From a virus: a DNA stretch of 26,099 nt. The position numbers were made by a program, and so were the translations under genes. Shown piece after piece: positions 3,055 through 26,099 of the stretch. The notes below the pieces were generated by a model. The model was not told the DNA's origin. It saw only the letters and a program-made list of their open reading frames with translations, and made no database searches. The stretch lies in IMG/VR virus record IMGVR_UViG_3300028041_000101, positions 1-26,099 of that record; one strand, written 5' to 3'. Each line of letters opens with the position of its first letter. The stretch's first letter is position 1.

Positions 3055-4607
3055 TGGGACTGCTCTCAAGGCTCCACAATCGCGGGCTGCACGCGCGGAG
3101 CCGCGATCCGCTCGACGACTTCTGGTACTCGCCGCTCGCCGGCTACATCGGCCACGCCGGTGTGCGCGTGACGCCGGAGCTGGCGATGACGCTCTCTGCC
3201 ATCTGGGCGGCGACGACGATCTACGCCAAGACGATCGGTTCTCTGCCGTGCATCCTCTACCGCGCTCTCGATCGGGGGAAGGAGCGGGCTCGCGATCATC
3301 ACCTCTACGATCGCCTTCGGTGGCAGCCGAACCAGTGGCAGACCGCGATGGAGTTCTGGGAGATGGTTGTCGGCCACTGGTTTCTGCGGGGAATCCACTT
3401 CTCGCAGATCGTCGAGGGCTCGCGCAGCTTTGCTGAGCAGTTGATCCCTCGGAACCCGGACCGCATGACCCAGAAGATGCGGCCCGACAACACGCTCCAA
3501 TTCGAGTACCGGCTGCCGAACGGGGACACGAAGACGTTCTTCCAGGACGAGATGTTCGTGGTCCGCGGGTTTTCGAGTGATGGCGTGCATGCGCTGTCGC
3601 TGATCCAGTACGGGGCCCAGGCGTTCGGCGCGCACGTCGCGGCTGAGACGTTCGCCGCGAAGTTCTTCGCGCAGGGCGCGGCGCCGGCGCTCGCGGTGGT
3701 TCATCCAGGCCAGCTTGGAGAGGCTGGGCTGAAGAACCTGCGCGACTCCGTGACGTCCTACGCGAGTGGCCTGGCAAACGCGCATGGCGTCCTGGCGCTC
3801 GAGGAGGACGTGAAACTGACGGTGCTGGGGATCAAGCCGGCCGATGCGCAGCTCGTCGCCGTCCGCGAATTCGGCGTCGAGGACGTGGCCCGCTGGGCGG
3901 ATCTGCCGGTGCACCGACTTCGTGCGAACCGTCAGGGCACGTCCAGCTACGCGAGCGTCGAGATGTTCGAGATCGAGATGATCGTTCACTCGTTCCGCCC
4001 CGTCGCGGTCCGAATCGAACAGGCCATCCATCGCGATCTGATCCTGGAGCACGAGCGCGAGAGTCTCTTCGTCGAGTATCTCTTCGACGCGCTCGCCCGC
4101 GGCGACATGACGGCCCGTGGCGAGTTCTACTCGAAGATGTGGGATCGCGGCGCGTTCAGCGTCAATGACATTCTCGAGCTCGAGAACCGGAACCCCGTGG
4201 AGGGCGGCGATCGCCGTTTTGTCCCCGCCAACATGATGCCGCTCGATCGCGTCGACGAGGCGATCAACAACCGGAGAACTGGCCCCGTCGACCGGCGTGC
4301 CGCCCTGATTGCGCACGAGGTCGCGCAGGCGCTCGTGCGGAAGGAGGTCGCGGCCGTCACCGGCGCTGCGAAGCGGCACGCCGCCAGCCCGGATGCGTGG
4401 AACGCGGCGCTCGTCGAGTTCTATGAAGACTTCGCGCACGACATCTGTGTGCGCCTGAAGGTGTCGCCGGGCGAGGCCCGTGAGTATGCCGCGCGGCACG
4501 GGCTTGCGCTGCGCGAGCAGGGCGTTGTCGCGGCGAAGCACTGGGAGGCAACGGCGCCGGCGGAATTGGTCTGCCTGGCACTCGACGCGCGGCCGAGCGC
4601 CGCGTAG
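3054..4607 (+). CDS. Portal protein (HK97 family)
   Basis: This 517-residue protein forms the dodecameric ring at one head vertex through which DNA enters and leaves. The N-terminal region (VTPELAMTLSAIWAATTIYA, about 40-59) and the segment GHWFLRGIHFSQIVEG (about 105-120) match HK97-type portals, as do the length and the position between large terminase and protease. The start is the ATG at 3054, overlapping the previous TGA and preceded by GGGAGG at 3041-3046. The open frame extends upstream to 2931, but that would run through the preceding small gene. The C-terminal 90 residues are Ala/Arg-rich and more variable, as is usual for the crown. Confidence 0.95.
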   Translation: MGLLSRLHNRGLHARSRDPLDDFWYSPLAGYIGHAGVRVTPELAMTLSAIWAATTIYAKTIGSLPCILYRALDRGKERARDHHLYDRLRWQPNQWQTAMEFWEMVVGHWFLRGIHFSQIVEGSRSFAEQLIPRNPDRMTQKMRPDNTLQFEYRLPNGDTKTFFQDEMFVVRGFSSDGVHALSLIQYGAQAFGAHVAAETFAAKFFAQGAAPALAVVHPGQLGEAGLKNLRDSVTSYASGLANAHGVLALEEDVKLTVLGIKPADAQLVAVREFGVEDVARWADLPVHRLRANRQGTSSYASVEMFEIEMIVHSFRPVAVRIEQAIHRDLILEHERESLFVEYLFDALARGDMTARGEFYSKMWDRGAFSVNDILELENRNPVEGGDRRFVPANMMPLDRVDEAINNRRTGPVDRRAALIAHEVAQALVRKEVAAVTGAAKRHAASPDAWNAALVEFYEDFAHDICVRLKVSPGEAREYAARHGLALREQGVVAAKHWEATAPAELVCLALDARPSAA

Positions 4608-4620
4608 GAGGAACCTCACG

Positions 4621-5607
4621 ATGTGGCTGATTCCCTTTGCGCTGGAGCATCCGTGGGCGGTGTCGCCCGAGTTCATGCCGGTGGTTGCCGAGATTCTCGC
4701 CCGTCACGCCGCCGGCGAGCGGCTGAGCGAGGCTGAGATCGAGGCGCGCATCGGCGACAAGCGACGCGCGGCTGAACGCGAGCCCGAGCGATCCGGCGCT
4801 GTCGCTGTGGTCCCGCTCTTCGGCTTGGTATTCCCCCGCGCGAATCTGATGTCAGCTGTCAGCGGCGCGACAACAGCGGAGGGTGTGGGTCGGCAGCTGC
4901 GCGCGCTCGCGGCGGACGACGACGTCGGCTCGATCGTGCTCGACATCAACAGTCCGGGCGGCCAGGTAGCTGGGATCACCGAGCTCGCCGCCGTCGTGCG
5001 CGAGGTGCGCGCGCAGAAGCCGGTGATCGCCGTGGCGCACCACCTGGCCGCGTCCGCCGCGTACTGGATCGCCTCGCAGGCGACGGAGCTCGTCGCCACG
5101 CCGTCCGCCCAGGTCGGCGCCGTCGGCGTCTACACCATGCACGAGGACCTGTCGAAGGCGCTCGAGCAGCAGGGGATCAAGCGCACCATCATCGCCGCGG
5201 GCAAGCACAAGGTCGAGGCGAGCGAGATCGAGCCGCTGTCCGACGAAGCGCGCGCGGCGATCCAGGCGCGCGTGGATCACGTGTACGGTCTCTTCGTGAA
5301 GGACATCGCCAAGGGCCGTGGCGTGCCGGTCGCGGACGTTCGGAACGGGTTCGGCGAGGGCCGGACCGTGCACGCGGAGCTCGCCGTGCGCGAGCGAATG
5401 GCCGATCGAGTAGCGACCTTCGACGCGGTCGTCGCCGAGCTCGTCGCCGGGAAATGGCGGGAGCCGAGTCGAGGCGCTTCGGCCAGCGACGACTCTGTTC
5501 CGGAGCTGCGTGCGGACGCACCGACTGTGGGCGACCCTCCGCTCGACGATACGGACCTGCGCCGGCGGCGCGCCCGGCTCGCGGCGGCAACCGCTACCCA
5601 CGGGTGA
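4621..5607 (+). CDS. Head maturation protease, S49 (SppA-like)
   Basis: This 328-residue serine protease should cleave the capsid scaffold domain during prohead maturation. The S49 fold is visible as VAVVPLFGLV (61-70), IVLDINSPGGQVAG (105-118), the nucleophile Ser145 in HLAASAAYWIAS, and the general base Lys197 in AAGKHKVEAS, giving the Ser-Lys dyad of SppA-type enzymes. Residues 1-55 form a helical N-terminal segment. The C-terminus (about 275-328) is disordered and Arg/Asp-rich, too short for a full scaffold protein. The start at 4621 follows AGGAGG at 4607-4612. No signal peptide, so it acts in the cytoplasm. It lies between portal and capsid as in HK97-type modules. Confidence 0.93.
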   Translation: MWLIPFALEHPWAVSPEFMPVVAEILARHAAGERLSEAEIEARIGDKRRAAEREPERSGAVAVVPLFGLVFPRANLMSAVSGATTAEGVGRQLRALAADDDVGSIVLDINSPGGQVAGITELAAVVREVRAQKPVIAVAHHLAASAAYWIASQATELVATPSAQVGAVGVYTMHEDLSKALEQQGIKRTIIAAGKHKVEASEIEPLSDEARAAIQARVDHVYGLFVKDIAKGRGVPVADVRNGFGEGRTVHAELAVRERMADRVATFDAVVAELVAGKWREPSRGASASDDSVPELRADAPTVGDPPLDDTDLRRRRARLAAATATHG

Positions 5608-5613
5608 TATTCG

Positions 5614-5862
5614 GTGGCTGACGTCGTGCGAGTGGATCGGAAGGGGCGGCGATACCGCGTCCGCCCTGGCCGGAAGCCGGGTGGGCTGGCGACAAAGCCT
5701 CTCGTGATCCGGGTCTCGCCGGCTGCGCGCGCGCGCCTGGCGGAGCTCGCGCGGCAGAACGGGGTGACCGTCAGTGAGTTCTGCCGCGAAGCGATCGAGG
5801 AGGCGGCGAGTGATTGCTCTGACGTTTCCGTATTCTCGAACGTCAGCAGTAAGGCATCCTGA
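5614..5862 (+). CDS. Ribbon-helix-helix-type small protein
   Basis: An 82-residue protein with a GTG start at 5614, six bases after the protease stop. Residues 29-65 read as a ribbon-helix-helix unit: a beta strand (PLVIRVS), a first helix (PAARARLAELARQNG), a turn (VTVSE) and a second helix (FCREAIEEAA). A basic N-terminal arm (9-24) precedes it and a Ser-rich tail follows. Such proteins usually dimerise and bind DNA operators, often those of their own operon. Its place between protease and capsid is unusual for a regulator. An 8-bp inverted repeat covers its last codons (5819-5846). The fold call is by pattern only; target and role are unknown. Confidence 0.7.
   Translation: MADVVRVDRKGRRYRVRPGRKPGGLATKPLVIRVSPAARARLAELARQNGVTVSEFCREAIEEAASDCSDVSVFSNVSSKAS
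5819..5846. promoter_or_regulatory. Inverted repeat, possible operator or hairpin
   Basis: CTGACGTT (5819-5826) and AACGTCAG (5839-5846) are perfect 8-bp inverted arms with a 12-base spacer, covering the final codons of the ribbon-helix-helix gene and lying about 210 bases before the capsid gene. It could be a DNA operator for that protein or an mRNA hairpin. There is no T-run, so it is not a terminator. The operator idea rests on proximity only. Confidence 0.35.
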
Positions 5863-5893
5863 TTTCGTTCAACACAACTCAGGCCGGCGGGTG

Positions 5894-5918
5894 CCGCGCG
5901 CTCTGTAGAGTCGCGCGG
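5894..5918 (+). promoter_or_regulatory. Stem-loop in capsid leader
   Basis: CCGCGCG (5894-5900) pairs with CGCGCGG (5912-5918), and the intervening CTC (5901-5903) pairs with GAG (5908-5910) around a TGTA loop with one bulged T. The result is a stem of about 10 bp in the untranslated leader of the capsid gene. It may slow RNase decay or shape translation of the capsid message. No promoter boxes could be picked out around it. Confidence 0.45.
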
Positions 5919-5970
5919 TCCGGCGGAACACAACGAGCGGCTTTGGTGAAAGCGCGCGGTTGTTCGGAGG

Positions 5971-5991
5971 CAGGCCGTCAGGCCTGTCTTT
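5971..5991 (+). terminator. Weak terminator-like hairpin before capsid gene
   Basis: CAGGCC (5971-5976), loop GTCA and GGCCTG (5981-5986) form a compact 6-bp hairpin followed by TCTTTG. The short stem and interrupted T-run suggest a partial terminator, attenuator or processing site. It lies about 70 bases before the capsid ATG in the 195-base gap 5863-6057, which otherwise shows only the upstream stem-loop. Confidence 0.35.
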
Positions 5992-6057
5992 GTGCAGTCG
6001 CGCGCTTCTCGCGTACGGGCCGCGCGCGAGGTCAACAGACACGGAGTGAAAACACCA

Positions 6058-11661: not shown

Positions 11662-11672
11662 CTCGAAACCGT

Positions 11673-11697
11673 GAGGGCCGGCCCGTGGTCGGCCCTC
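11673..11697 (+). other. 8-bp hairpin after tail tube gene
   Basis: GAGGGCCG (11673-11680) pairs with CGGCCCTC (11690-11697) around a 9-base loop, 12 bases after the tail tube stop. No T-run follows. Its place after an abundant virion protein gene is like the hairpin at the capsid stop, suggesting mRNA stabilisation rather than termination. Confidence 0.6.
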
Positions 11698-11737
11698 GCG
11701 CTGAGGGTAATTCGCGGACCCAGCCGCGAGGAGGTGT

Positions 11738-16372: not shown

Positions 16373-18094
16373 ATGGCCGTGTACGTCATCACCCGCACGC
16401 GCGGCGGTGTCGGCGCATCGAAGGAGATCCAGCCCGACTTTTCCATCGCGGAGGCCGCTAATGGCCGGAACCGCCTGGAGTGCGCGGCAGTCTCTGTGGA
16501 CGGTTCTGACCGCTGGGAGCTCGATGACGAGATCGGGCTGACGGAGGATGGCGTCACGATCTTCGGCGGGATCCTGGACGTGCCCGTCGAGTCCGGCGTG
16601 GGCGGCTTTACGGGTTCTGCCGCGATCTCGCAGCGGCTGTCCTTCGTTGACTTCAACGTCTACCCCTCTCGGATCACCGTCGGCACTGATACTGATCGGC
16701 CGTCCGAGACGCTGCGGGCGAGGCTCGCGTGGATTGCCGGGCTGATGTCGGCGCAGGGAGTCAGCGCCACCGTCTATGTCAACGGCAGCACGGTGACGGC
16801 GGGGCCGATGCTCGTGGCAGCGTCCTATTCGGCGGACCGCTACCTGCTCGACGTGCTGAACGAGACGATGGCGCTCGCGAGCGGCACCGGCGCGACGTCA
16901 TGGGTGTGGGAGGTGGATTACACGAAGGTGCTGCGTGCGATCGAAGCCGGCACGTCCGCGGCGCCGTTCAACCTGGCTGACGGTGACGGCCAGGTGCTCG
17001 GGGACATCGTCGTCGAATCGTCGCGGCCGTCTGATTACGCGAACTACGTCATCCTGCTTGGCGGGCAGGGCACGCACGATGCGTCCGACAGCTTCACGGG
17101 TGACGGGGTCACGTCCAGCTTCACGCTCACCTACACGCTGTCCGCGACCTACGGGTACGTGACGGTGAATGGTGTGCAGGAAACGCTGGCGGTTCAGGGG
17201 ACGGGCTTCGATTCCGCTGTGTACTGGCTCTATTACGCGAGCGACAACACGATTCGCCGTGTGCCTGGCGCCGGGCCGCCGGCGGCTGGCGCCGCGATCA
17301 GCATCACCTACGTCGGGCAGTTCCCTGTTCGTGTGCTGGCCGACGGCGGAGTCGCAGCGGCGAACCGCGTCCAGCGCGTCTATCAGGAGCCGGAGGTGTT
17401 CGACAAGGCTGTGATGCAGGCGTTGGCGGATTCGTATCTCACGCGGGATATGCAATCGCCGAAGGTTGTGCGGTTCTCGTGTGCCTACGAGAAGACCGGC
17501 CTGCATCCGGGCCAGACGCTGACGATCACGAGTCCGAAGCGGAACCTGTCGGGAACGTTTCTGATTACCGACGTGCGGATCGCGCATGTTGCGGGGTCGC
17601 TGGTCCAGCGGCATGTCGTCGCGGTCGGCACGACGCGCTTGCCGCGCACCCTGCGAGAGAGATTCCGGCAGGCGTTTGCCGGACGGACGGGCGCCGCGAG
17701 CGCCAGCAGTGTGACGGTGGTCACGGGTGGCACCTTTCTGTCTTCGCCCGTGTTTCTCGGCGGATCGGATCGGACGTTTGTGGCGAAGAATCCGTCCGCC
17801 TGGGTGCGCGTGCCGAACGCGACTCCCTACGTCGCTCCGGCCAACTTGAGCGTCACGCTGCGGGCGATGGTGGCGGCCCGCACGGCAGGCGTAACCGTCG
17901 CGGTGCGCCTCTACGACGCGACGTCTCTCGCGGTGGCGTTCGCCTCGGCGCCGAAGGCGATCGCCGTCGCTGGTGAGCCGGAGGAGGTGACGGCCTCCGG
18001 CAGCCTCACGAGCGGACACAAGTATTTCCTCGAGATGTTGAGCGGCACCAACGGCGAAGGCGTGGCGGCCCTCGGCCACCTGGAGAGCGCGTGA
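16373..18094 (+). CDS. Tail tip / baseplate hub protein
   Basis: A 573-residue beta-rich protein starting directly after the tape measure stop. Its N-terminus (IAEAANGRNRLECAAV, then ELDDEIGLTEDGVTIFGGIL, 50-69) resembles the hub (gp27-like) domains of siphophage tail tips. Residues about 238-318 look like an inserted beta domain (FTGDGVTSSFTLTYTL through AAISITYVGQFPV). The segment HPGQTLTITSPKRNLSGTFL (about 381-400) closes the hub ring. Residues 455-573 form a jelly-roll-like domain after a linker. The protein would cap the tube and carry the fibre. Only one hub gene lies between the tape measure and fibre genes. Confidence 0.75.
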   Translation: MAVYVITRTRGGVGASKEIQPDFSIAEAANGRNRLECAAVSVDGSDRWELDDEIGLTEDGVTIFGGILDVPVESGVGGFTGSAAISQRLSFVDFNVYPSRITVGTDTDRPSETLRARLAWIAGLMSAQGVSATVYVNGSTVTAGPMLVAASYSADRYLLDVLNETMALASGTGATSWVWEVDYTKVLRAIEAGTSAAPFNLADGDGQVLGDIVVESSRPSDYANYVILLGGQGTHDASDSFTGDGVTSSFTLTYTLSATYGYVTVNGVQETLAVQGTGFDSAVYWLYYASDNTIRRVPGAGPPAAGAAISITYVGQFPVRVLADGGVAAANRVQRVYQEPEVFDKAVMQALADSYLTRDMQSPKVVRFSCAYEKTGLHPGQTLTITSPKRNLSGTFLITDVRIAHVAGSLVQRHVVAVGTTRLPRTLRERFRQAFAGRTGAASASSVTVVTGGTFLSSPVFLGGSDRTFVAKNPSAWVRVPNATPYVAPANLSVTLRAMVAARTAGVTVAVRLYDATSLAVAFASAPKAIAVAGEPEEVTASGSLTSGHKYFLEMLSGTNGEGVAALGHLESA

Positions 18095-20757
18095 TGTGGC
18101 GAACCTTGGTTTCGGTGGCTCTGATGGTGCTCGGTCTCGCGCTTCCGACGGCGGCGCAGGACGAGCAGTTGGTCAGCAAGCTCTATCTGACCTCCTGGAG
18201 TGGCGCGACCATCACGAGCGCCAGCGGGGCACCGAGTGCGAGTGAGCCGAACGGCAGCCTCTATCTCCGCACGGACACCGGGCAGTGGTATCAGCGCATC
18301 GGGGGCGCGTGGGTGACGCTGACCGATGCGAGCGGGAAGATCCCCGCGCTGTCCTCGACCTACTTCGCCTCACTCTCCGGGGCGAATCTGACCTCGCTCC
18401 CGGCTGGGCAGCTCACGGGGACGATCGCCAGCGGCGTGCGATTCGCCGACGGCTCGGCGGCTGGCCCGAGTATCTCATTCGCGAATGCTCCGACCGTCGG
18501 GTTCTACCTCTCGAGCAATGTGATTCATGTCGCTCATGCCGGCACGCGCATCGCCCGGTTCGCCGGCAGCACGAACGCGGCGAGTTGGCTGATGGGGCCG
18601 GCGGACGCGACGTACGTGCGACTCGGGAACGACGTGGGTCTCGCCAACGGCAACTCGAGTCGCAACGTGTTTCTCAACCCGAGTGGGGGCGGGGGTGTCC
18701 ACGTCGTGGGCAGCAACCCGTTCGGATGGGCGCCCAGCGAAACGAGCAGCCTCGCCGGTATGACACTTCAACTGTGGTCGCCTGCGAGCGATGTGCTCGA
18801 GCAACGGCGCGGCGCGAATCCGCAGACGTGGCGACTCGCCAAGACTCACACGAACGCCTCGAATTATGAGCGGCTCACCGTCTTCAGTGACGCGGGCGGC
18901 TACTACATCGGCACGGAGTGGGCCGGCACCGGAGAGGATCGCGCTCTCCGTATCGGCACGCGGAACGGCAGCGGAGGCTGGTTGTTCGCTGCGACGACGA
19001 ACGATCTGAGCGGCTCTGGCAACATCAGCACGAGCGGCACCGTGACGCTGGGCGGCGTCGCCTCGCATCTTATCCCGACGACCACGGACACCTACGACCT
19101 CGGCCGCCACGACCGCTACTGGGACGAGGCGTTCATCAGCACGCTCAACTCCGTCGTCTACCGCGAGAGCACGCAGCTCCTGTTTGGTGGCTACAGCACC
19201 GTCGGCCGGCAGGCGGGGAGCTTCGCAGCAGACGTGTCGAGCGCGGCGACGACGATCAACTTCGCCCAGACGATGACGCCGGGACACTGGGTCCAGGTCC
19301 GCGCGCATGACACTGCTGGTGCCGTGAAGGTGGAATACCTCACCGTCGGCTCGCTCGTCTCCGGGACGACCTACAACGTCACGCGCGATCTCGCCGGCGC
19401 GCACGGGACCGATCCCGCGTGGGCGGCTGGGACGCCGTTCCTCGTCCTCGGCACGGAGGGCGACGGGCGCATCGACCTGCTGGCCTACGACGGAAAACCG
19501 CGCATCGCCTTCGTCCAGCAGGGCGCGACGTTCAACGCTCAGCACGACCGCTGCGTCATTGGCAATCTGAACGGCTACTACTCCTACGCGTCGGACATCT
19601 ACGGTCTCGCCTGCGGCGACGCTGCGGCCGCCAACGTGACGACGGACCCGACCAACGGTTTCCGCGTGCGGCACGGGACGACCGAGCGGATCAAGCTGGC
19701 AGCGGACGGCAGCGGCTTCCTCGCCAACAGCAACATCGCCTGGAACGCAGCGGGCGCGCTGACGATCACCGGGGACGCCACGATCGGCGGCTGGTCGATC
19801 GGCGCGTCGTCGATCACCGGCGGCAACGCCACGTTGGCGAGCTCCGGCAACCTCACGCTCGGCACGAGCGATGACGTGCTGCGCGCCTCGGCCGACGACG
19901 CGACCTACCGCCTGTGGATTGGAGCCGCCACCGCGGCGATCGCGCCGTTCCGGGTGACGAAGGCCGGTGGCGTCACCATGGCCGGCGCGACGATCACGGG
20001 CTCTGACATCACGCTCGGGACAGCGGCGAGTTACCTGTCGAGCAATGCGCTGAAGTTCGCACGGCCATCGAATTACACCGGCGTGTTCGACCTCTATTCG
20101 GTCGCCGGATCCGGCCTCGCGGATCTGTATTTGGAGAACGACCTCGCGCCGGCGTTCGGCACGTCGCAAGGCCGGATCATCCTGCGCGCGCGCAGCTACA
20201 GCGTGGGCCCCACGCCCTCGAACTGGGCCTCGCTCACGCTCACGAGCCTGTCGAGCAACACCGTCTCCGCCGCGCAGCTCGTGGCCGATCAGATCGCGCT
20301 CACGGGTGCGACGAGCATCAGCGGCGCGTTCTCGACGTCAGGCGCGATCACGGAGCGGAACCGCGCGACGCCGCTCGGCGAATGGCAATCGGTCGCGTAC
20401 AGCAGCGGCCACTTTTCGGCGTCCTCAGGGTCGTGGACGGTGGAGAGTGCCGACCAGGAGGTGCTCGGCTACACGCTCGTCGGCAAAACCCTGACGGTGA
20501 CGTATCGGCTCACGTCGACCAGCGTGAGCGCGACGCCTGGCGCGTTGCGGGTGGCGATCCCCGGTGGCTTCACGGCCGCCCGCAGCACGCTCGTGCCCAT
20601 CGGCTACGCGGCGGACGCAGGCACGATCGTGGACGCGTATGCGTCGGTGGGCAGCGGGGGCACGAACATTGTGTTCAACAAGCGTAACGCCGCGAACTGG
20701 TCGACCGCGACCAACAGCACCGACGTGATCGGGCAGATCACGTTCGAGATTCAGTGA
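18094..20757 (+). CDS. Tail fibre-like protein with Sec signal peptide
   Basis: An 887-residue fibre-type protein. After the N-terminus comes GSLYLRTDTGQWYQRIGGAW (about 52-71), typical of phage fibres. A module at about 540-660 has GGWSIGASSITGG, RLWIGAATAA and PFRVTKAGG, and a terminal beta-sandwich (about 752-887) has LGEWQSVAYSSGHF, EVLGYTLVGKTLTVTY and LRVAIPGGF, like C-terminal receptor-binding heads. Unusually, residues 1-21 read as a Sec signal peptide (MWRTLVSVALMVLGLALPTA, predicted cut between A21 and Q22). The ATG at 18094 overlaps the hub stop. A GTG at 18091 is also in frame. The role is adhesion; receptor unknown. Confidence 0.8.
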   Translation: MWRTLVSVALMVLGLALPTAAQDEQLVSKLYLTSWSGATITSASGAPSASEPNGSLYLRTDTGQWYQRIGGAWVTLTDASGKIPALSSTYFASLSGANLTSLPAGQLTGTIASGVRFADGSAAGPSISFANAPTVGFYLSSNVIHVAHAGTRIARFAGSTNAASWLMGPADATYVRLGNDVGLANGNSSRNVFLNPSGGGGVHVVGSNPFGWAPSETSSLAGMTLQLWSPASDVLEQRRGANPQTWRLAKTHTNASNYERLTVFSDAGGYYIGTEWAGTGEDRALRIGTRNGSGGWLFAATTNDLSGSGNISTSGTVTLGGVASHLIPTTTDTYDLGRHDRYWDEAFISTLNSVVYRESTQLLFGGYSTVGRQAGSFAADVSSAATTINFAQTMTPGHWVQVRAHDTAGAVKVEYLTVGSLVSGTTYNVTRDLAGAHGTDPAWAAGTPFLVLGTEGDGRIDLLAYDGKPRIAFVQQGATFNAQHDRCVIGNLNGYYSYASDIYGLACGDAAAANVTTDPTNGFRVRHGTTERIKLAADGSGFLANSNIAWNAAGALTITGDATIGGWSIGASSITGGNATLASSGNLTLGTSDDVLRASADDATYRLWIGAATAAIAPFRVTKAGGVTMAGATITGSDITLGTAASYLSSNALKFARPSNYTGVFDLYSVAGSGLADLYLENDLAPAFGTSQGRIILRARSYSVGPTPSNWASLTLTSLSSNTVSAAQLVADQIALTGATSISGAFSTSGAITERNRATPLGEWQSVAYSSGHFSASSGSWTVESADQEVLGYTLVGKTLTVTYRLTSTSVSATPGALRVAIPGGFTAARSTLVPIGYAADAGTIVDAYASVGSGGTNIVFNKRNAANWSTATNSTDVIGQITFEIQ

Positions 20758-20765
20758 GAGGACCC

Positions 20766-21050
20766 ATGGAGATCACGATCGTCGGCACCAACCCACTCAC
20801 CGTCCAGATGGCCTTTGCGCCGAAGGAGCAGCGCGCCCTCGCGTTTGCCGCGCAGGAGGCGAGCCGGACGGAGGGCCGCGCGATCACGCCGCGCGAGCAC
20901 CTCGAGGGGCGGATCAACGAGTACGTCCAGGCCATGTTGCGCCGTTACCAGGAGCGTCTCACGAACGCGCTGCTCGAGCGGTTCCACGACGCGACGCCCG
21001 AACAGCAGGCGGCGGCGATACAGGCCGTCGGCGGCGAGATTCCGCAGTAG
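20766..21050 (+). CDS. Small tail-associated protein of unknown function
   Basis: A 94-residue protein at the ATG at 20766 with GAGAGG just upstream. A GTG at 20754 is in frame and overlaps the fibre stop. The N-terminal strand MEITIVGTNPLTVQMAF leads to helices with LAFAAQEASRTEGRAITPREHLEGRINEYV-type composition (about 25-54), YQERLTNALLERF (about 62-74) and an acidic end. It looks like a small alpha-helical phage protein found after fibre genes. No family named. It could be a fibre chaperone or tail accessory; this is inference from position. Confidence 0.65.
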   Translation: MEITIVGTNPLTVQMAFAPKEQRALAFAAQEASRTEGRAITPREHLEGRINEYVQAMLRRYQERLTNALLERFHDATPEQQAAAIQAVGGEIPQ

Positions 21051-21060
21051 GGGAGAGGAC

Positions 21061-21369
21061 ATGAAGCTCGTGACGTTCGCACTCATCACCCTCGTCGCCC
21101 TGGCGATCGCGGCGCCGCTCATCGCGCAGGACGCGCCGAGGACGGAAGACGCACCCGTGCTGTCCGTCGAGCAGAGGCAGGCCGTGACGATCCTCGCGCA
21201 GTCGATGGAGATCGCGCAGCTCCGTGCCCAGCAGGCCCAGCGCGACTTCGACCAGGCGCGCGAGCAGCTCGGGAAGCTCCTGCAGTCGCTCGAGCGCGAG
21301 GGGTTCGCGCTTGACCTCCAGACGATGACGTATGTGAAGAAGCCGGAGGCTGGCAAGCCGCCGAAGTGA
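21061..21369 (+). CDS. Small secreted coiled-coil protein
   Basis: A 102-residue protein preceded by GGGGAGAGG at 21051-21059. Residues 1-22 form a Sec signal peptide (LVTFALITLVALAIAAPLIA) with a predicted cut at A22, before QDAP, the same A|QD junction as the fibre protein. Residues about 42-82 form an amphipathic, Gln-rich helix (QRQAVTILAQSMEIAQLRAQ, then REQLGKLLQSLER), giving a periplasmic coiled coil. The Lys-rich end is unstructured. It could be a spanin-like lysis protein, but there is no lipobox and the inner-membrane anchor would be removed by cleavage. Otherwise unknown. Confidence 0.65.
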   Translation: MKLVTFALITLVALAIAAPLIAQDAPRTEDAPVLSVEQRQAVTILAQSMEIAQLRAQQAQRDFDQAREQLGKLLQSLEREGFALDLQTMTYVKKPEAGKPPK

Positions 21370-21379
21370 TCTTCTGACC

Positions 21380-21463
21380 CTCCGTCACAGCCTTGGCGGG
21401 CTGCGGCCCCTGCACTGACCCGGTGCAGGTGTTCATCGGGCGCCACCCGGTGAACCGACGGAG
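21380..21463 (+). ncRNA. Cloverleaf-shaped structured RNA (not a canonical tRNA)
   Basis: Four helices can form at once. The closing stem is CTCCGTC (21380-21386) with GACGGAG (21457-21463). Hairpin 1 is CAGCC (21388-21392) with GGCTG (21399-21403). Hairpin 2 is CCTGCAC (21409-21415) with GTGCAGG (21423-21429) and a 7-base loop. Hairpin 3 is GTTCATCGGG (21431-21440) with CCCGGTGAAC (21446-21455), 10 bp with one G-U pair. The result is a four-way junction of 84 bases. It lacks U33, a TTCRA loop and CCA spacing, so it is not an ordinary tRNA. The closing stem includes GGAG, a Shine-Dalgarno for the mini-frame at 21472. Folding is by eye. Confidence 0.5.
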
Positions 21464-21471
21464 ATGACCAC

Positions 21472-21522
21472 ATGGGTGTGGGGATCAAGGGCTCCCTGCT
21501 GATCGCCGGTGAAGTCCGGTGA
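21472..21522 (+). CDS. Possible 16-codon leader peptide
   Basis: An ATG at 21472 opens a 16-residue frame (MGVGIKGSLLIAGEVR) ending in TGA at 21520-21522. GGAG at 21460-21463 lies eight bases upstream and forms part of the closing stem of the cloverleaf. The frame covers the 5' arm of the terminator (21486-21495), so a ribosome translating it would block terminator folding. It looks like an attenuator leader rather than a functional protein. Such short frames also arise by chance, and the case rests on its placement. Confidence 0.3.
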   Translation: MGVGIKGSLLIAGEVR

Positions 21523-21547
21523 CGGCGGCGGAGCCCTTGTCTTTTTC
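21486..21547 (+). terminator. Intrinsic terminator between structural and lysis genes
   Basis: CAAGGGCTCC (21486-21495) and GGAGCCCTTG (21530-21539) form a perfect 10-bp stem, followed by TCTTTTTC at 21540-21547. The 34-base apical region can form an inner stem, CGCCG (21504-21508) with CGGCG (21523-21527). This is the only strong hairpin plus T-run in the window, and it lies before the lysis genes. No promoter boxes are visible between it and the next ATG at 21576, so downstream genes appear to need readthrough or antitermination. Confidence 0.8.
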
Positions 21548-21575
21548 GACGTGACGAAAACGGAGAGGAGCGCGA

Positions 21576-21869
21576 ATGCAGCTCACACCGACAGAGATTC
21601 TGAGTTTCGCGCTACCGGTTGTCGCGTTCATCGCGTGGCTCACGCGATTGGAGGCTCGCATGAATTGGTTCGAGGCGCAGCGAAAGGCGGATCTCCAGCT
21701 CGCCGAGGCGCAGCGCACGGCCGACAACGCGCTCGCCGACCAGCGGATGGCCGCCATCGACGAGAAGCTCGACGACATCCGCGAGGCCATGAAGGGGCTG
21801 GAAGGGTTGAAGGTGAAGGTCGATCGCATCAGCTCGTTCATCAGCGGGCAGGCGGCGGGGAGCGTGTGA
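21576..21869 (+). CDS. Single-span membrane coiled-coil protein, possible holin or lysis factor
   Basis: A 97-residue protein with GAGGAG at 21565-21570. One N-terminal membrane segment (about 8-24, ILSFALPVVAFIAWL) precedes a long, charged, heptad-like helix (25-90, MNWFEAQRKADLQLAEAQRT and DEKLDDIREAMKGLEGLKVK). The stop overlaps the transglycosylase ATG (TGATG), so the two are coupled. A small membrane protein coupled to an endolysin is usually a holin or holin regulator. The large cytoplasmic or periplasmic coiled coil would also fit an inner-membrane spanin. Topology cannot be set from sequence alone. Confidence 0.72.
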   Translation: MQLTPTEILSFALPVVAFIAWLTRLEARMNWFEAQRKADLQLAEAQRTADNALADQRMAAIDEKLDDIREAMKGLEGLKVKVDRISSFISGQAAGSV

Positions 21870-22396
21870 TGAGCGTTCGTCCGCTCATCGAAGCGGTCGC
21901 GCGGGGGGCGGGGCTCGATCCAGATCTCGTCGATGCGGTCGTCCGCAAGGAGTCCAGTGGCGTCACATGGGCCTGGAACCCGGAGCCGCACTACCGCTTC
22001 TTGTGGGACGTGAAGCAGCAGAAACCCTTCCGCCGCCTGACCCCGGAGGAGATCAAGTCCGAAACGCCGCCGGCGGACTTCCCGTGCCTTGCTGGGGATC
22101 GTGACCAGGAGTGGTGGGCGCAGCAGGCGTCGTGGGGACTCATGCAGGTGATGGGCGGCGTGGCCCGCGAGCAAGGGTTCCGCGGCGGCTACATCAACCA
22201 ACTCCACGATCCCGAGGTGGGGCTCTTCTACGGCGTGCGCGTGCTGCGCGCGCTGATCCTGTGGGCGGACGGCAATCTGCACCAGGCGCTCGCCGCCTAT
22301 AACGGCGGCCGCGGAGGCTGGACGGCGGAGCAGCCACAGCGATACGCGACCAGTGTGCTGCAGATCCTCGAGCGGATCCGAAAGGAGCGCCGATGA
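21869..22396 (+). CDS. Lytic transglycosylase (SLT-type endolysin)
   Basis: A 175-residue enzyme expected to cleave the MurNAc-GlcNAc bond of peptidoglycan. The catalytic Glu is E28 in VVRKESSG. The second motif ASWGLMQVMGGVARE (87-101) and the third, AAYNGGRGGW (142-151), are the standard order of soluble lytic transglycosylases. Both termini lie close to the catalytic core. There is no signal peptide or membrane segment, so export needs a holin, most simply the protein encoded upstream. An insert at 40-80 with KPFRRLTPEEIKSETPP is longer than in minimal enzymes. It could be a tail-associated murein hydrolase, but its lysis neighbours favour an endolysin. Confidence 0.88.
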   Translation: MSVRPLIEAVARGAGLDPDLVDAVVRKESSGVTWAWNPEPHYRFLWDVKQQKPFRRLTPEEIKSETPPADFPCLAGDRDQEWWAQQASWGLMQVMGGVAREQGFRGGYINQLHDPEVGLFYGVRVLRALILWADGNLHQALAAYNGGRGGWTAEQPQRYATSVLQILERIRKERR

Positions 22397-22788
22397 ATAC
22401 CGCGCCCCGCATCCCGCCCCGGCGGCCGGATTCTCACCAGAGTGGCGTGCCTGGCGCATGGATCGTCGCCATGCTGCTCGCGGCCGTGACCCTGTTGGCC
22501 GTTGCTATCGACGCGCAGCCGCCGACGGAATCATCGCTCGGCTACCACGATGCGATGCCGGAGATCGTCGGGATGAGCGGCGACTGCGCGGGCTATGTGA
22601 TTGGCTCCGGTCGCGTCGATGCTGCCGCGCACGAGATCGAGGAAGGCTTCGCCGCGATCGGCGGGGTTTCGTTGTCCATGCGGCCGTCGTCGCCCCTGTG
22701 GCGTCGGGTCGTGGAACTGCACGGACAGCCGGTGGAGGTCGTCATCCGCCCCGTGCGACCGCGTGGGCTCGAAAGGGTGGAGCGATAA
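22393..22788 (+). CDS. Membrane-anchored or secreted small protein, lysis cassette
   Basis: A 131-residue protein whose ATG overlaps the previous stop (ATGA). A basic, Pro-rich N-terminus (residues 1-20) precedes one hydrophobic segment (22-39, AWIVAMLLAAVTLLAVAI). A possible signal peptidase site is IDA|Q at 41-42. The remaining 90 residues carry a Cys (GDCAGYVIG) and an alpha/beta-like domain ending SLWRRVVELHGQPVEVVIRP-type composition. It is not coiled-coil, unlike a typical Rz. Coupling to the endolysin suggests a lysis role, but no family is recognised and no lipobox is visible. Confidence 0.65.
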   Translation: MNTAPRIPPRRPDSHQSGVPGAWIVAMLLAAVTLLAVAIDAQPPTESSLGYHDAMPEIVGMSGDCAGYVIGSGRVDAAAHEIEEGFAAIGGVSLSMRPSSPLWRRVVELHGQPVEVVIRPVRPRGLERVER

Positions 22789-22790
22789 CG

Positions 22791-25190
22791 ATGGATGTTC
22801 ATGTCACCGGCCGCGTGTGCGGCGGGCAGGAAATCGGCCGCCATGTGTGGATCGACGGCGAGATCATCGCCGCCGGCGGCGGCATCCGATGGGTCTCCCC
22901 GGCCGATCCTGATGATCTCCGCGTCGTGTTCGCCAGGCGCGAGGACGCGACCCTCGTCGTCGCGGACGGCCGCACGGGCGAAGTGCTCGTCGAGACGGGG
23001 CAGCGTGCGAACGCGATCGGCGCCGGCGGCGGGATCGTCGTTGGCTGGCTCCCGCCGCTCTTCGGCGTCGGAGTCGACCTGAGCGCGCTCGCGTCGATGC
23101 GTGTCCCGGATCACCAGCGGAGCACGTGGGTGTCACCGGACGGCGCGGTCGCCTACGTGCCCGATGCCGGCTACCCGGTGCGCGTGCGCGAGCGGGACGG
23201 TCGCGACTGGCTCCTGAGTGAGGAGCCCGTCTTCGACCTGCAGCTCCTCGCGGGCGGCCGCGCGGTCTGGAAAACGACGACGGGGACGCTCGGCACGCGC
23301 GGTGTCGTCGGCATCGCGCCGCCGGGGCATTGGGGACGGCCGCGCCTCGCGACCGTGGGCGTGCGCGACTACCTCTGCGTCTTCGTCCCGCAGCACGGCC
23401 TGGTCGTCTACCCGGCCGCGGACCTCCGGCAGGGGATCGTCGTGCCCGGCGTGGATCCCTGGAATGCCTACGCACACCTCGTGCGCGCCGTTGATCCGCG
23501 CACCGTCGAGGTGATCTGGAGCAGCGGCCCTGGAGAGCGCCCGCACGAACTGCGACGCGAGCACGTCGACGTCCTGGCGGGCCCCTTCATCAACCTCGCC
23601 GGCGGAGAGCCGGGGACGCCGCCGCCGGAGCGGAAGCCGGAACAGGAGATTCCCATGCGCAAGCCGGAAGTCACCGTCGATCGCTGGACCCTCGACGAGC
23701 TGAAGGACGGCCGCGAGTTCGTCTTCCGCGATCGGGAGAATCCGCACCTCGGATACTCGGTGCGGGTGTTCGTCCAGAACGGCTCGATGCACGCGGAGAT
23801 CACGAACGCGGCGGGCACTGGCGCGACAGGCGCTCGGCGCGCAGTGAAGCAGTCGCCGCCGGCGCCTGCCCCTCTGCCTCCTCCGCCCGCGCCGCAGGGG
23901 CCGGAGGCAGTCTGCCGCGCGATCTGGCGCGAGGAGCTCGAGCGTGAGATCGATCCTGACGGCTTGGCGGATTGCGTCGCGCAGCTCCGCGGGGGGCGGT
24001 CCGCGGAGGAGGTCCGCGCCGGTGTCCGCCAGTCGCCGGAGTATGCCGAGGTGCAGAAGCGGAAGCGCGAGCAGCCGGCGCCGGCGCCGACGCCGCGGGA
24101 CGAGATCGCGGGCCGCATCCGCGCGGAGGGGCGCCTGTTCAGGAACGACGCTGGGGCCTTCCGGCCGCGCTTCGTGTCGGCGCTCACCGCCCTCGCGAAG
24201 CGCGGCCAGGTGTCGGCGTATCTCGAGTGGGCCGCGCGGAGCGGGTTCAACGGGATCCGGGTGTTCGCAGGGCACCTCTCGTGGGCGGGCCAGACGGCCG
24301 CCGGCGCGCTCGACCGCCTGCCGGGGCTCCTCACGATGGCGCGCGCCCACGGCCTGTACGTGGAGGTCACCGCGCTGACGGACACGCGCGAGGGCGGCTA
24401 CGACCTCCGGGCGCACGTCCGCCGCTGCGCCGAGATCGTCAAGAGCCACGATCACGCGATCCTCGAGATCGCCAACGAGCCGTATCACCCGACGCAGGTC
24501 GGCGAGCTCCATGACCACGCGACGCTGCTGCGGCTCCACCAGGAGATCGTGGCGCCGCTCGGCGTGACGTGCGCGCTCGGAGCCCCGGACACCGACGAAC
24601 CGGAGCCGGGCCATCCCGTCGCGGATTACGTGACGCTCCACCTCGATCGCGGCCGTGATCCCTGGAACATGGTGCGCCGCGTGCGCGAGCTCGAGATGGC
24701 CAGCGGCGGCCTCAATCGGCCGGTGCTGAACAACGAGCCGATCGGCGCCGACGAGACGCCGTCGCGCGGCCGGCGCGAATCGGATCCCGCCATCTTCTTC
24801 ACGATGGGCGTCCTCGAGCGGATCTTCGAGACGGGGGGCGTGCACCACTCGCAGGCGGGGCTGCACTGCGACCTGCCGGGTCCGGTGCAGCGCGCGTGCG
24901 CCGAGGCGTATGTCCGCGGCGCGACGCTGATCCCGACGGCGGCCCGGCTGGCGTTCCACAACGCCAGGCGCCCCGAGGCGGCCGAGGGGTTCATCGTGGC
25001 CGCGAATCTCCCGGGGGATGGCGTCCAGCACACGATCATCCGCGCCTTCACCGGCGTCGCTGGCGACCGCGGCTGGACCGTCCTGGTCGGCCTCACGGGG
25101 GATCCGCAGGTCGAATGGCGTCAGGGCTGGCGGCGCGTCCGCACGGTCGCGGAGATGCCGGGCGTCCAGGTGATCGAGATCGCACGGTAG
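22791..25190 (+). CDS. Multidomain glycoside-hydrolase-like protein
   Basis: A 799-residue protein. Residues 1-270 are beta-rich with repeats of the SPDGAVAYVPD and DDLRVVFARRED type, suggesting a beta-propeller-like domain. After a Pro-rich linker (275-290), residues 291-345 form a small beta domain. After a second Pro-rich stretch (355-370), 373-418 resemble a DUF4214-like helix module (DPDGLADCVAQLRGGRS, SPEY). Residues 435-799 look like a clan-A TIM-barrel: acid/base Glu563 in LEIANEPYHP and likely nucleophile Glu649 in RPVLNNEPIG, with HHSQAG at 685-690. Possible roles are a capsule or envelope glycan depolymerase. The frame extends upstream, but 22791 lies just after the previous stop. 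No signal peptide. Confidence 0.78.
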   Translation: MDVHVTGRVCGGQEIGRHVWIDGEIIAAGGGIRWVSPADPDDLRVVFARREDATLVVADGRTGEVLVETGQRANAIGAGGGIVVGWLPPLFGVGVDLSALASMRVPDHQRSTWVSPDGAVAYVPDAGYPVRVRERDGRDWLLSEEPVFDLQLLAGGRAVWKTTTGTLGTRGVVGIAPPGHWGRPRLATVGVRDYLCVFVPQHGLVVYPAADLRQGIVVPGVDPWNAYAHLVRAVDPRTVEVIWSSGPGERPHELRREHVDVLAGPFINLAGGEPGTPPPERKPEQEIPMRKPEVTVDRWTLDELKDGREFVFRDRENPHLGYSVRVFVQNGSMHAEITNAAGTGATGARRAVKQSPPAPAPLPPPPAPQGPEAVCRAIWREELEREIDPDGLADCVAQLRGGRSAEEVRAGVRQSPEYAEVQKRKREQPAPAPTPRDEIAGRIRAEGRLFRNDAGAFRPRFVSALTALAKRGQVSAYLEWAARSGFNGIRVFAGHLSWAGQTAAGALDRLPGLLTMARAHGLYVEVTALTDTREGGYDLRAHVRRCAEIVKSHDHAILEIANEPYHPTQVGELHDHATLLRLHQEIVAPLGVTCALGAPDTDEPEPGHPVADYVTLHLDRGRDPWNMVRRVRELEMASGGLNRPVLNNEPIGADETPSRGRRESDPAIFFTMGVLERIFETGGVHHSQAGLHCDLPGPVQRACAEAYVRGATLIPTAARLAFHNARRPEAAEGFIVAANLPGDGVQHTIIRAFTGVAGDRGWTVLVGLTGDPQVEWRQGWRRVRTVAEMPGVQVIEIAR
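23644..23657 (+). promoter_or_regulatory. Internal Shine-Dalgarno and ATG in the glycoside hydrolase gene
   Basis: AGGAG at 23644-23648, then six bases, then an in-frame ATG at 23655, lie in the linker codons between the propeller-like N-terminus and the rest. Initiation here would give a 511-residue enzyme without the N-terminal domain. It marks the domain boundary exactly, so it may be a relic of a former separate gene or a working second start. Chance is possible in an AG-rich linker. Confidence 0.4.
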
Positions 25191-25204
25191 GAGGAGAGGG
25201 CAGG

Positions 25205-25837
25205 ATGCCGCGCTATCTGGCGATCGCCGGGACGCACGGGTCGCGCCGACGCCTGGACTGGGATCACCCGCGGTCGGCGTTCGCCGACTTCCTCCGCGCT
25301 CGCGGTCTCGAGCCGCTCGAGGAGGACGAGCGCCGGCGCTACGCGTGGTCGACAGTTCTGGACGGGATCGACGGCCGCGACGACACGTGGGATGCGGCAG
25401 GCCGTGCGCTCTATCACTACCTGGTGCCGCCCCTCGGTATCGGAGGTCCCGCGATTCCTCCGCGCGAGACGTTCATCGTCGCGCACTCGCACGCCGGCCA
25501 GGTGGTCGCGTTCGCCTGCGGCGTCTACGGCTTAGAGGTGGAGGGGCTGGTCACGGTCGGCACGCCGGTCCGCGGCGGGCGGATGACGGAGGTCTACGCG
25601 GCCGCGGCGCCGCGCATCCGGCGCCACCTGCACCTGCACAGCCGGCGCGACTGGTGGCAGGTTGTCGGGTCGCTGTTCGACGGCCGCTGGGGCATCCATC
25701 GGGAGCACCCGCACGCCGACAACCAGGAGATGCCGAAGGGGCACGGCGACGTCCTCCGCGATCCCGGGCTCTTCGCTCTCTGGGTCTCGAGAGGGTGGAT
25801 CTCCTACTTGCAGCCGGAGGTGGCTGGTGTCGGCTGA
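25205..25837 (+). CDS. Alpha/beta hydrolase (lipase/esterase-like)
   Basis: A 210-residue protein starting at an ATG at 25205 after a strong AGGAGGAG. It has a short strand with the oxyanion loop IAGTHGS (7-13), the nucleophile elbow VAHSHAGQVV with Ser95, a likely acid Asp149 (SRRDWW) and a likely base His180 (KGHGDV), in the order expected of an alpha/beta hydrolase. The elbow is HSHAG rather than the usual GxSxG. No signal peptide, no cap domain. It lies next to the glycoside-hydrolase-like gene, so ester hydrolysis of an envelope glycan or lipid is possible. Substrate unknown; the last 11 bases overlap the next gene. Confidence 0.75.
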   Translation: MPRYLAIAGTHGSRRRLDWDHPRSAFADFLRARGLEPLEEDERRRYAWSTVLDGIDGRDDTWDAAGRALYHYLVPPLGIGGPAIPPRETFIVAHSHAGQVVAFACGVYGLEVEGLVTVGTPVRGGRMTEVYAAAAPRIRRHLHLHSRRDWWQVVGSLFDGRWGIHREHPHADNQEMPKGHGDVLRDPGLFALWVSRGWISYLQPEVAGVG

Positions 25838-26099
25838 GCAGAAAGGTGATGTCCCTGGAGGTGTGGCGCTCCAGGCGCCGCCGGCGGAGCACTACGGGCG
25901 GATCAGCCAAGCCGTCGACGCGTTCGCGCAGACGCTTGCGCCTGAGCAGCGCGGCGGCGCCGTCGGGATCGCCACGACGAAGGGGGTGAACCTCGCGATC
26001 GTCCAGCGCGTGGGCGGCCGCAGCGCGATCGTCGGGTGGGTCGGCAAGTCGTGGGGGGAGCCGATCGAGGGCGGTCTCGCCTGGAAGCTCCGCTGGTAG
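25827..26099 (+). CDS. Small protein of unknown function
   Basis: A 90-residue protein from a GTG at 25827, preceded by GGAGG at 25816-25820 and overlapping the hydrolase gene by 11 bases. The N-terminus is polar; a helix with HYGRISQAVDAFAQTL (about 22-37) is followed by strands GGAVGIATTKGVNLAIVQRV (43-62) and AIVGWVGKSWGEP (67-79), then an aromatic end. No transmembrane segment is clear. I do not recognise a family. Starts further upstream in this frame would lie inside the hydrolase gene. The window ends on its stop codon, so the following gene is not visible. Confidence 0.65.
   Translation: MSAEQKGDVPGGVALQAPPAEHYGRISQAVDAFAQTLAPEQRGGAVGIATTKGVNLAIVQRVGGRSAIVGWVGKSWGEPIEGGLAWKLRW

Follow-up and report, generated by a model that had tools for sequence, protein, structure and literature searches.

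What does a phage gain from 206 nt of strongly folded DNA, devoid of genes, at the boundary between its tail and lysis modules? The locus lies in IMG/VR record IMGVR_UViG_3300028041_000101, a linear sequence of 26,099 bases from a soil-type uncultivated phage, which we analyzed over its full length (hereafter the window). The original prediction had read the gap (21370-21575, plus strand) as a lysis-timing switch in which a cloverleaf RNA, a leader peptide, and a terminator act together. Our findings support the terminator part of that reading and not the switch part. Thus, the gap is probably a leaky or antiterminator-bypassed intrinsic terminator, which would form the 3' end of the tail transcript and act as a brake on the lysis genes; attenuation through a leader peptide is possible but unlikely.

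Genomic Setting

The window reads as the late region of a tailed-phage genome, with genes for terminase, portal, capsid, tape measure, and tail proteins and for an SLT transglycosylase; family matches within it identify the terminase large subunit (PF03354/PF20441), the portal (PF04860), and the capsid (PF05065). Immediately 5' of the gap, a small gene without family assignment (21061-21369, plus strand) encodes a secreted-looking, coiled-coil-like protein whose N-terminus, by eye, resembles a signal peptide. On the 3' side, and on the same strand, lie a gene whose product has one N-terminal hydrophobic segment and a likely coiled coil (21576-21869) and the gene of an SLT lytic transglycosylase, a lysis or cell-wall enzyme (21869-22396; PF01464, E=1.1e-10). 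The term lysis genes, as first applied here, stands for the transglycosylase; it does not carry over to a holin label for the gene before it, whose product matches no Pfam family, gives a marginal Rz-like spanin match only (E=0.035), and is only possibly spanin- or holin-like. Further downstream, a 799-aa protein that looks like a glycoside hydrolase by eye (22791-25190) and a 210-aa hydrolase-like protein (25205-25837) are encoded, both without Pfam or PHROG match. Elsewhere in the window, between the genes of an S49-like protease and of the capsid, we observed the gene of a small ribbon-helix-helix (Arc/CopG-like) protein (5614-5862), a possible late-gene regulator.

Fold of the Gap

The three nested elements that had been described in the gap, a four-way junction, a short reading frame, and a terminator-like repeat, are all present. 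As a whole, the gap reaches a predicted minimum free energy of -112.2 kcal/mol, against -85.4 kcal/mol in dinucleotide shuffles (z -5.8, and z -5.35 in a repeat run); in the folding check proposed with the original prediction, the gap thus folds far better than shuffled sequence. Both halves contribute to this stability, with z -4.2 for the 92-nt cloverleaf segment (21376-21467) and z -7.2 for the hairpin alone. In the cloverleaf (21380-21463, plus strand) a 7-bp closing stem, CTCCGTC (21380-21386) with GACGGAG (21457-21463), surrounds three hairpins and contains the GGAG, in the sequence as well as in the predicted fold. The four-way junction is not a rare shape, being returned by 24 of 400 shuffled cloverleaf sequences (6%) and by 21 of 566 windows of the same phage; since 6% of its own shuffles also give a junction, the cloverleaf is specific in stability and not in shape. 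Between the cloverleaf and the terminator-like element, a small hairpin (CCACA-TGGG-TGTGG, 21468-21481, plus strand) is predicted. ARAGORN found no tRNA or tRNA-like element in the cloverleaf, which is thus not a tRNA, and no Rfam covariance model matched it.

A Candidate Terminator before the Lysis Genes

The second half of the gap contains a long GC-rich hairpin of 54 nt (21486-21539, plus strand; -42.7 kcal/mol), the putative stem of an intrinsic terminator, whose base is a perfect 10-bp repeat (21486-21495 with 21530-21539). Directly 3' of it stands a U-tract (TCTTTTTC, 21540-21547, with TCTTTTT), so that in sequence and predicted fold 21486-21547 has the layout of an intrinsic terminator, a GC-rich hairpin running straight into a U-run. 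In a scan that allows long loops (E<-18, at least 6 T in 8), this is the sole strong hairpin-plus-U-tract on the plus strand of the 26-kb record; a simple terminator scan missed the hairpin because of its loop limit of 8. Shuffled 26-kb windows give 0.57 such matches on average, and none of 60 has one at -42 or below. The perfect 10-bp stem claimed at the outset is thus present, and the hairpin with its U-tract is stronger than any in the shuffled windows. Its placement adds support: the hairpin falls exactly at the module boundary, 116 nt after the last stop codon, that of the upstream gene, and 28 nt separate the end of the U-tract from the next start codon (21576), with the SLT gene following. 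A terminator-like element immediately upstream of the lysis genes is therefore well supported.

How the genes beyond the hairpin are reached can be approached from the promoters. No TANNNT (-10) hexamer occurs over the 800 nt of 20900-21700, and a search for promoters of the sigma-70 type gave no match in 18000-26099. The gap itself holds no TA dinucleotide anywhere (21370-21575), which is not unusual in this GC-rich phage, where 84 of 518 windows of gap size are also without TA. Thus, no canonical sigma-70 promoter lies 3' of the hairpin, although the consensus may not suit the host and promoters of other types are possible; moreover, the 28 nt between the U-run and the start codon are too short for a promoter plus leader. 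With no TANNNT and only these 28 nt, transcription of the downstream genes probably depends on readthrough by polymerases that pass the hairpin. No antiterminator gene and no Q-like gene were identified in the window, which is a fragment of the genome.

A compact, stable fold with an intrinsic terminator at its end would also suit a trans-acting small RNA of about 170 nt, stand-alone or derived from the 3' UTR, made of the cloverleaf plus the terminator. Yet no TANNNT hexamer stands in front of such an RNA, it belongs to no known family, and no conservation was seen in the relatives or collections searched, all of which makes this origin of the fold very improbable.

A Probable Brake between Tail and Lysis Modules

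If the hairpin is a terminator, a polymerase on the late cluster would pass the last gene of the tail module, and its RNA would fold into the stable cloverleaf; the very strong hairpin and the U-run would then cause most transcripts to end near 21540-21547. Folded in this way, the 3' end could shield the structural mRNA against exonucleases, while the transglycosylase and its neighbors would be expressed only from the readthrough fraction, or with the help of a phage antiterminator that modifies the polymerase, and the lysis proteins would thus be kept low or late. In E. coli, ribosomes repress terminators only near an upstream stop codon, and efficiency climbs with distance to a maximum (PMC4824070). 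The 116-nt structured spacer may keep trailing ribosomes away from the terminator, the cloverleaf then being a folded spacer as well as a protection of the 3' end. A simple leaky or bypassed terminator, whose functional steps we infer, would account for all the observed parts of the gap. Nonetheless, the searches turned up no homologue of the gap, and the stem exceeds typical intrinsic terminators in length and might instead act as an RNase III or stability hairpin.

In the latter case the gap would be a region of mRNA processing or stability, where cloverleaf and hairpin, as RNase III structures or as barriers to exonucleases, fix the late-gene stoichiometry, with no termination. The long, nearly continuous duplex of 21486-21539 is consistent with such a role, as are two more strongly folded gaps beside structural genes. 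One, a 195-nt gap before the capsid gene (5863-6057; z about -4.8), has a long hairpin (GGCAGGCC-GTCA-GGCCTGTCTTTG) and a weak T-run; the other, after a tail-tube-like gene (11662-11737; z -3.5), has a near-perfect GC-rich stem (GAGGGCCGGCC..GGTCGGCCCTC) and no T-run. Yet, among the folded gaps, only 21370-21575 has a proper U-tract, which a processing site does not need. Because of the folded gaps before the capsid and after the tail-tube-like genes, we keep a stability or processing role in view as a minor but realistic alternative.

The minimum free energy structure also pairs 21371-21375 with the Shine-Dalgarno (SD) region of the first downstream gene (ACGGAGAGGAG), whose unpaired probabilities are mostly low. 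Translation could in this manner be controlled by the 5' sequence of the gap (CUUCU/CCUCCGU), which would hide the SD as long as no ribosome completing the upstream gene covers this sequence. The pairing is short, however, its partners are 200 nt apart, and pyrimidine-rich segments often pair with SDs by chance; we give this form of control hardly any credence.

The 16-Codon Frame and the Proposed Leader-Peptide Switch

According to the original prediction, the SD of a 16-codon frame is masked by the folded cloverleaf; once the cloverleaf opens, a translating ribosome blocks the terminator arm, so that the lysis genes are read. The frame (MGVGIKGSLLIAGEVR*, 21472-21522, plus strand) does exist, with GGAG 8 nt upstream, but is probably fortuitous. 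The gap contains four mini-frames preceded by an SD, this one included; among shuffled gaps, 17% have one or more SD+ATG frames of 8-60 codons, a share that rises to 64% when any start codon is accepted. The frame is thus near chance expectation and weakly supported. Several features do fit a leader: the SD lies in the closing stem and would take only about 4 kcal/mol to open within the full gap, the frame overlaps the 5' arm of the hairpin and has its stop codon within this hairpin, and the GC3 of the frame (81%) resembles the 84-87% of the phage's genes. The SD is paired with a probability of about 0.99, and the sequence gives no indication of what might unpair it.

Leader ORFs that overlap a terminator are found in the amino-acid biosynthesis and pyrBI attenuators. 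The gap, its frame being probably fortuitous, would share this overlap with them but differs in having no run of regulatory codons in the 16-codon peptide, no competing antiterminator, and no demonstrated pause site. The one alternative pairing of any size, between 21379-21388 and 21519-21528, is less stable by about 24 kcal/mol and was rejected as an antiterminator on energy; the competing fold of comparable energy that characterizes a ribosome-mediated attenuator is therefore lacking. Experiments in E. coli also argue against the switch. A construct of Li et al. came close to the geometry of the mini-frame plus hairpin, with a terminator 30 bp downstream of the AUG and the stop codon beyond that terminator (PMC4824070); in the gap, hairpin and U-tract occupy 14-76 nt past the AUG. 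At this distance the terminator keeps most of its efficiency, translation costing only ~10%, and exceptions such as pyrBI rely on a pause site (PMC4824070). With a mini-frame near chance, a buried SD, no identified trigger, and no homologue found in which the frame is conserved, the coupling of cloverleaf and leader is not borne out, and leader-peptide attenuation is highly unlikely. Just as doubtful is a lysis-timing RNA switch in which the cloverleaf, as a sensor of a protein, a metabolite, or the state of the ribosome, would free the leader frame and let the polymerase enter the lysis genes.

Comparison with Known Systems

The accompanying statement that the arrangement is not known from any named phage system was too strong, given lambda tR', the Pseudomonas alp terminator tB, and Gifsy-1 IsrK. 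In the lambda Q system, the intrinsic terminator tR' follows a structured leader and precedes the S-R-Rz lysis genes, which are expressed only via readthrough; a promoter and the qut site lie just before tR', and the lysis genes precede the structural genes. The gap resembles tR' in placing a terminator after structured RNA and before lysis genes, but it follows tail genes, with no promoter visible and no Q-like gene identified. In Pseudomonas aeruginosa, tB directly precedes the lysis gene alpB (of alpBCDE), begins 54 nt downstream of the start site of its own promoter, and is bypassed by AlpA, its deletion raising reporter expression >28-fold; lambda tR' served as a test terminator (PMC7969949). 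The likeness to tB, an intrinsic terminator directly before the first lysis gene, is one of placement and implies no sequence relation, and it does not extend to a promoter with an AlpA element, none being found at the gap. By analogy, the function of the gap would resemble that of tR' and especially that of tB. Membership of this type cannot be claimed, because the sequence just upstream yielded no dedicated promoter that carries an antiterminator site (search for TANNNT in 20900-21700 and for sigma-70 matches in 18000-26099).

In the Gifsy-1 prophage, the isrK-orf45-anrP region likewise joins a structured RNA, a leaky terminator, and an upstream ORF coupled to the downstream gene; there, a short isoform acts in trans and the alternative structures are near equal (-85.7 and -84.2) (PMC4825925), whereas the only long alternative pairing of the gap lies about 24 kcal/mol above its fold. 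The transcription map of LUZ100 comprises many termination sites, sequential readthrough, and many transcription units (PMC10134795); those sites were mapped experimentally, whereas the terminator of the gap is predicted. Lambda and Pseudomonas alp thus already provide terminators that meter lysis genes, and the candidate in the gap would not, alone, establish a new mechanism.

Relatives and Counterparts

Homologues of the gap were found neither in phages or plasmids nor in an IMG/VR pattern search, and homology searches with the flanking small proteins, the tail protein, and the 800-aa gene gave nothing useful; TerL relatives were rejected as a source of homologues, being too distant. The single-sequence covariance models R1 and R2, searched against some 0.9 Mb of loci plus 30 relatives' records, gave a significant match to the window only, and R1 had no match in 297 genomes; a one-sequence model has little reach, and these negatives are therefore weak evidence. 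From p20754 we arrived at L082/L083, with 88% nucleotide identity to 19992-21052 of the window followed by divergence, and with different genes and no cloverleaf past the end of the match. There, around 3224-4287, the C-terminus of the tail fibre and the next gene match, and the similarity stops at the module boundary, likely a recombination junction.

Hairpins unrelated to that of the gap, each with a T-run, stand directly before the SLT gene in L014 (TAGGGCCGC...GCGGCCCTACTTTTTTG) and L025 (GACATGGCGGCC...GGCCGCCATGTCTCTTTTTG), two distant phages that share no recognized gene other than that of the transglycosylase. The presence of such unrelated hairpins where the soil-type phage has its candidate terminator suggests that the arrangement may recur independently. 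In relatives' loci, the 250 nt on the 5' side of the SLT gene have hairpins with U-tracts at 0.28 per kb, against 0.10 per kb overall (about 2.8x), an enrichment that is suggestive at most, since only about six of the eight matches are independent. In L025, a near-perfect hairpin (4927-4965) contains the SD and the start codon of the transglycosylase gene and is followed by TCTTTTT, possibly a combined terminator and translation block.
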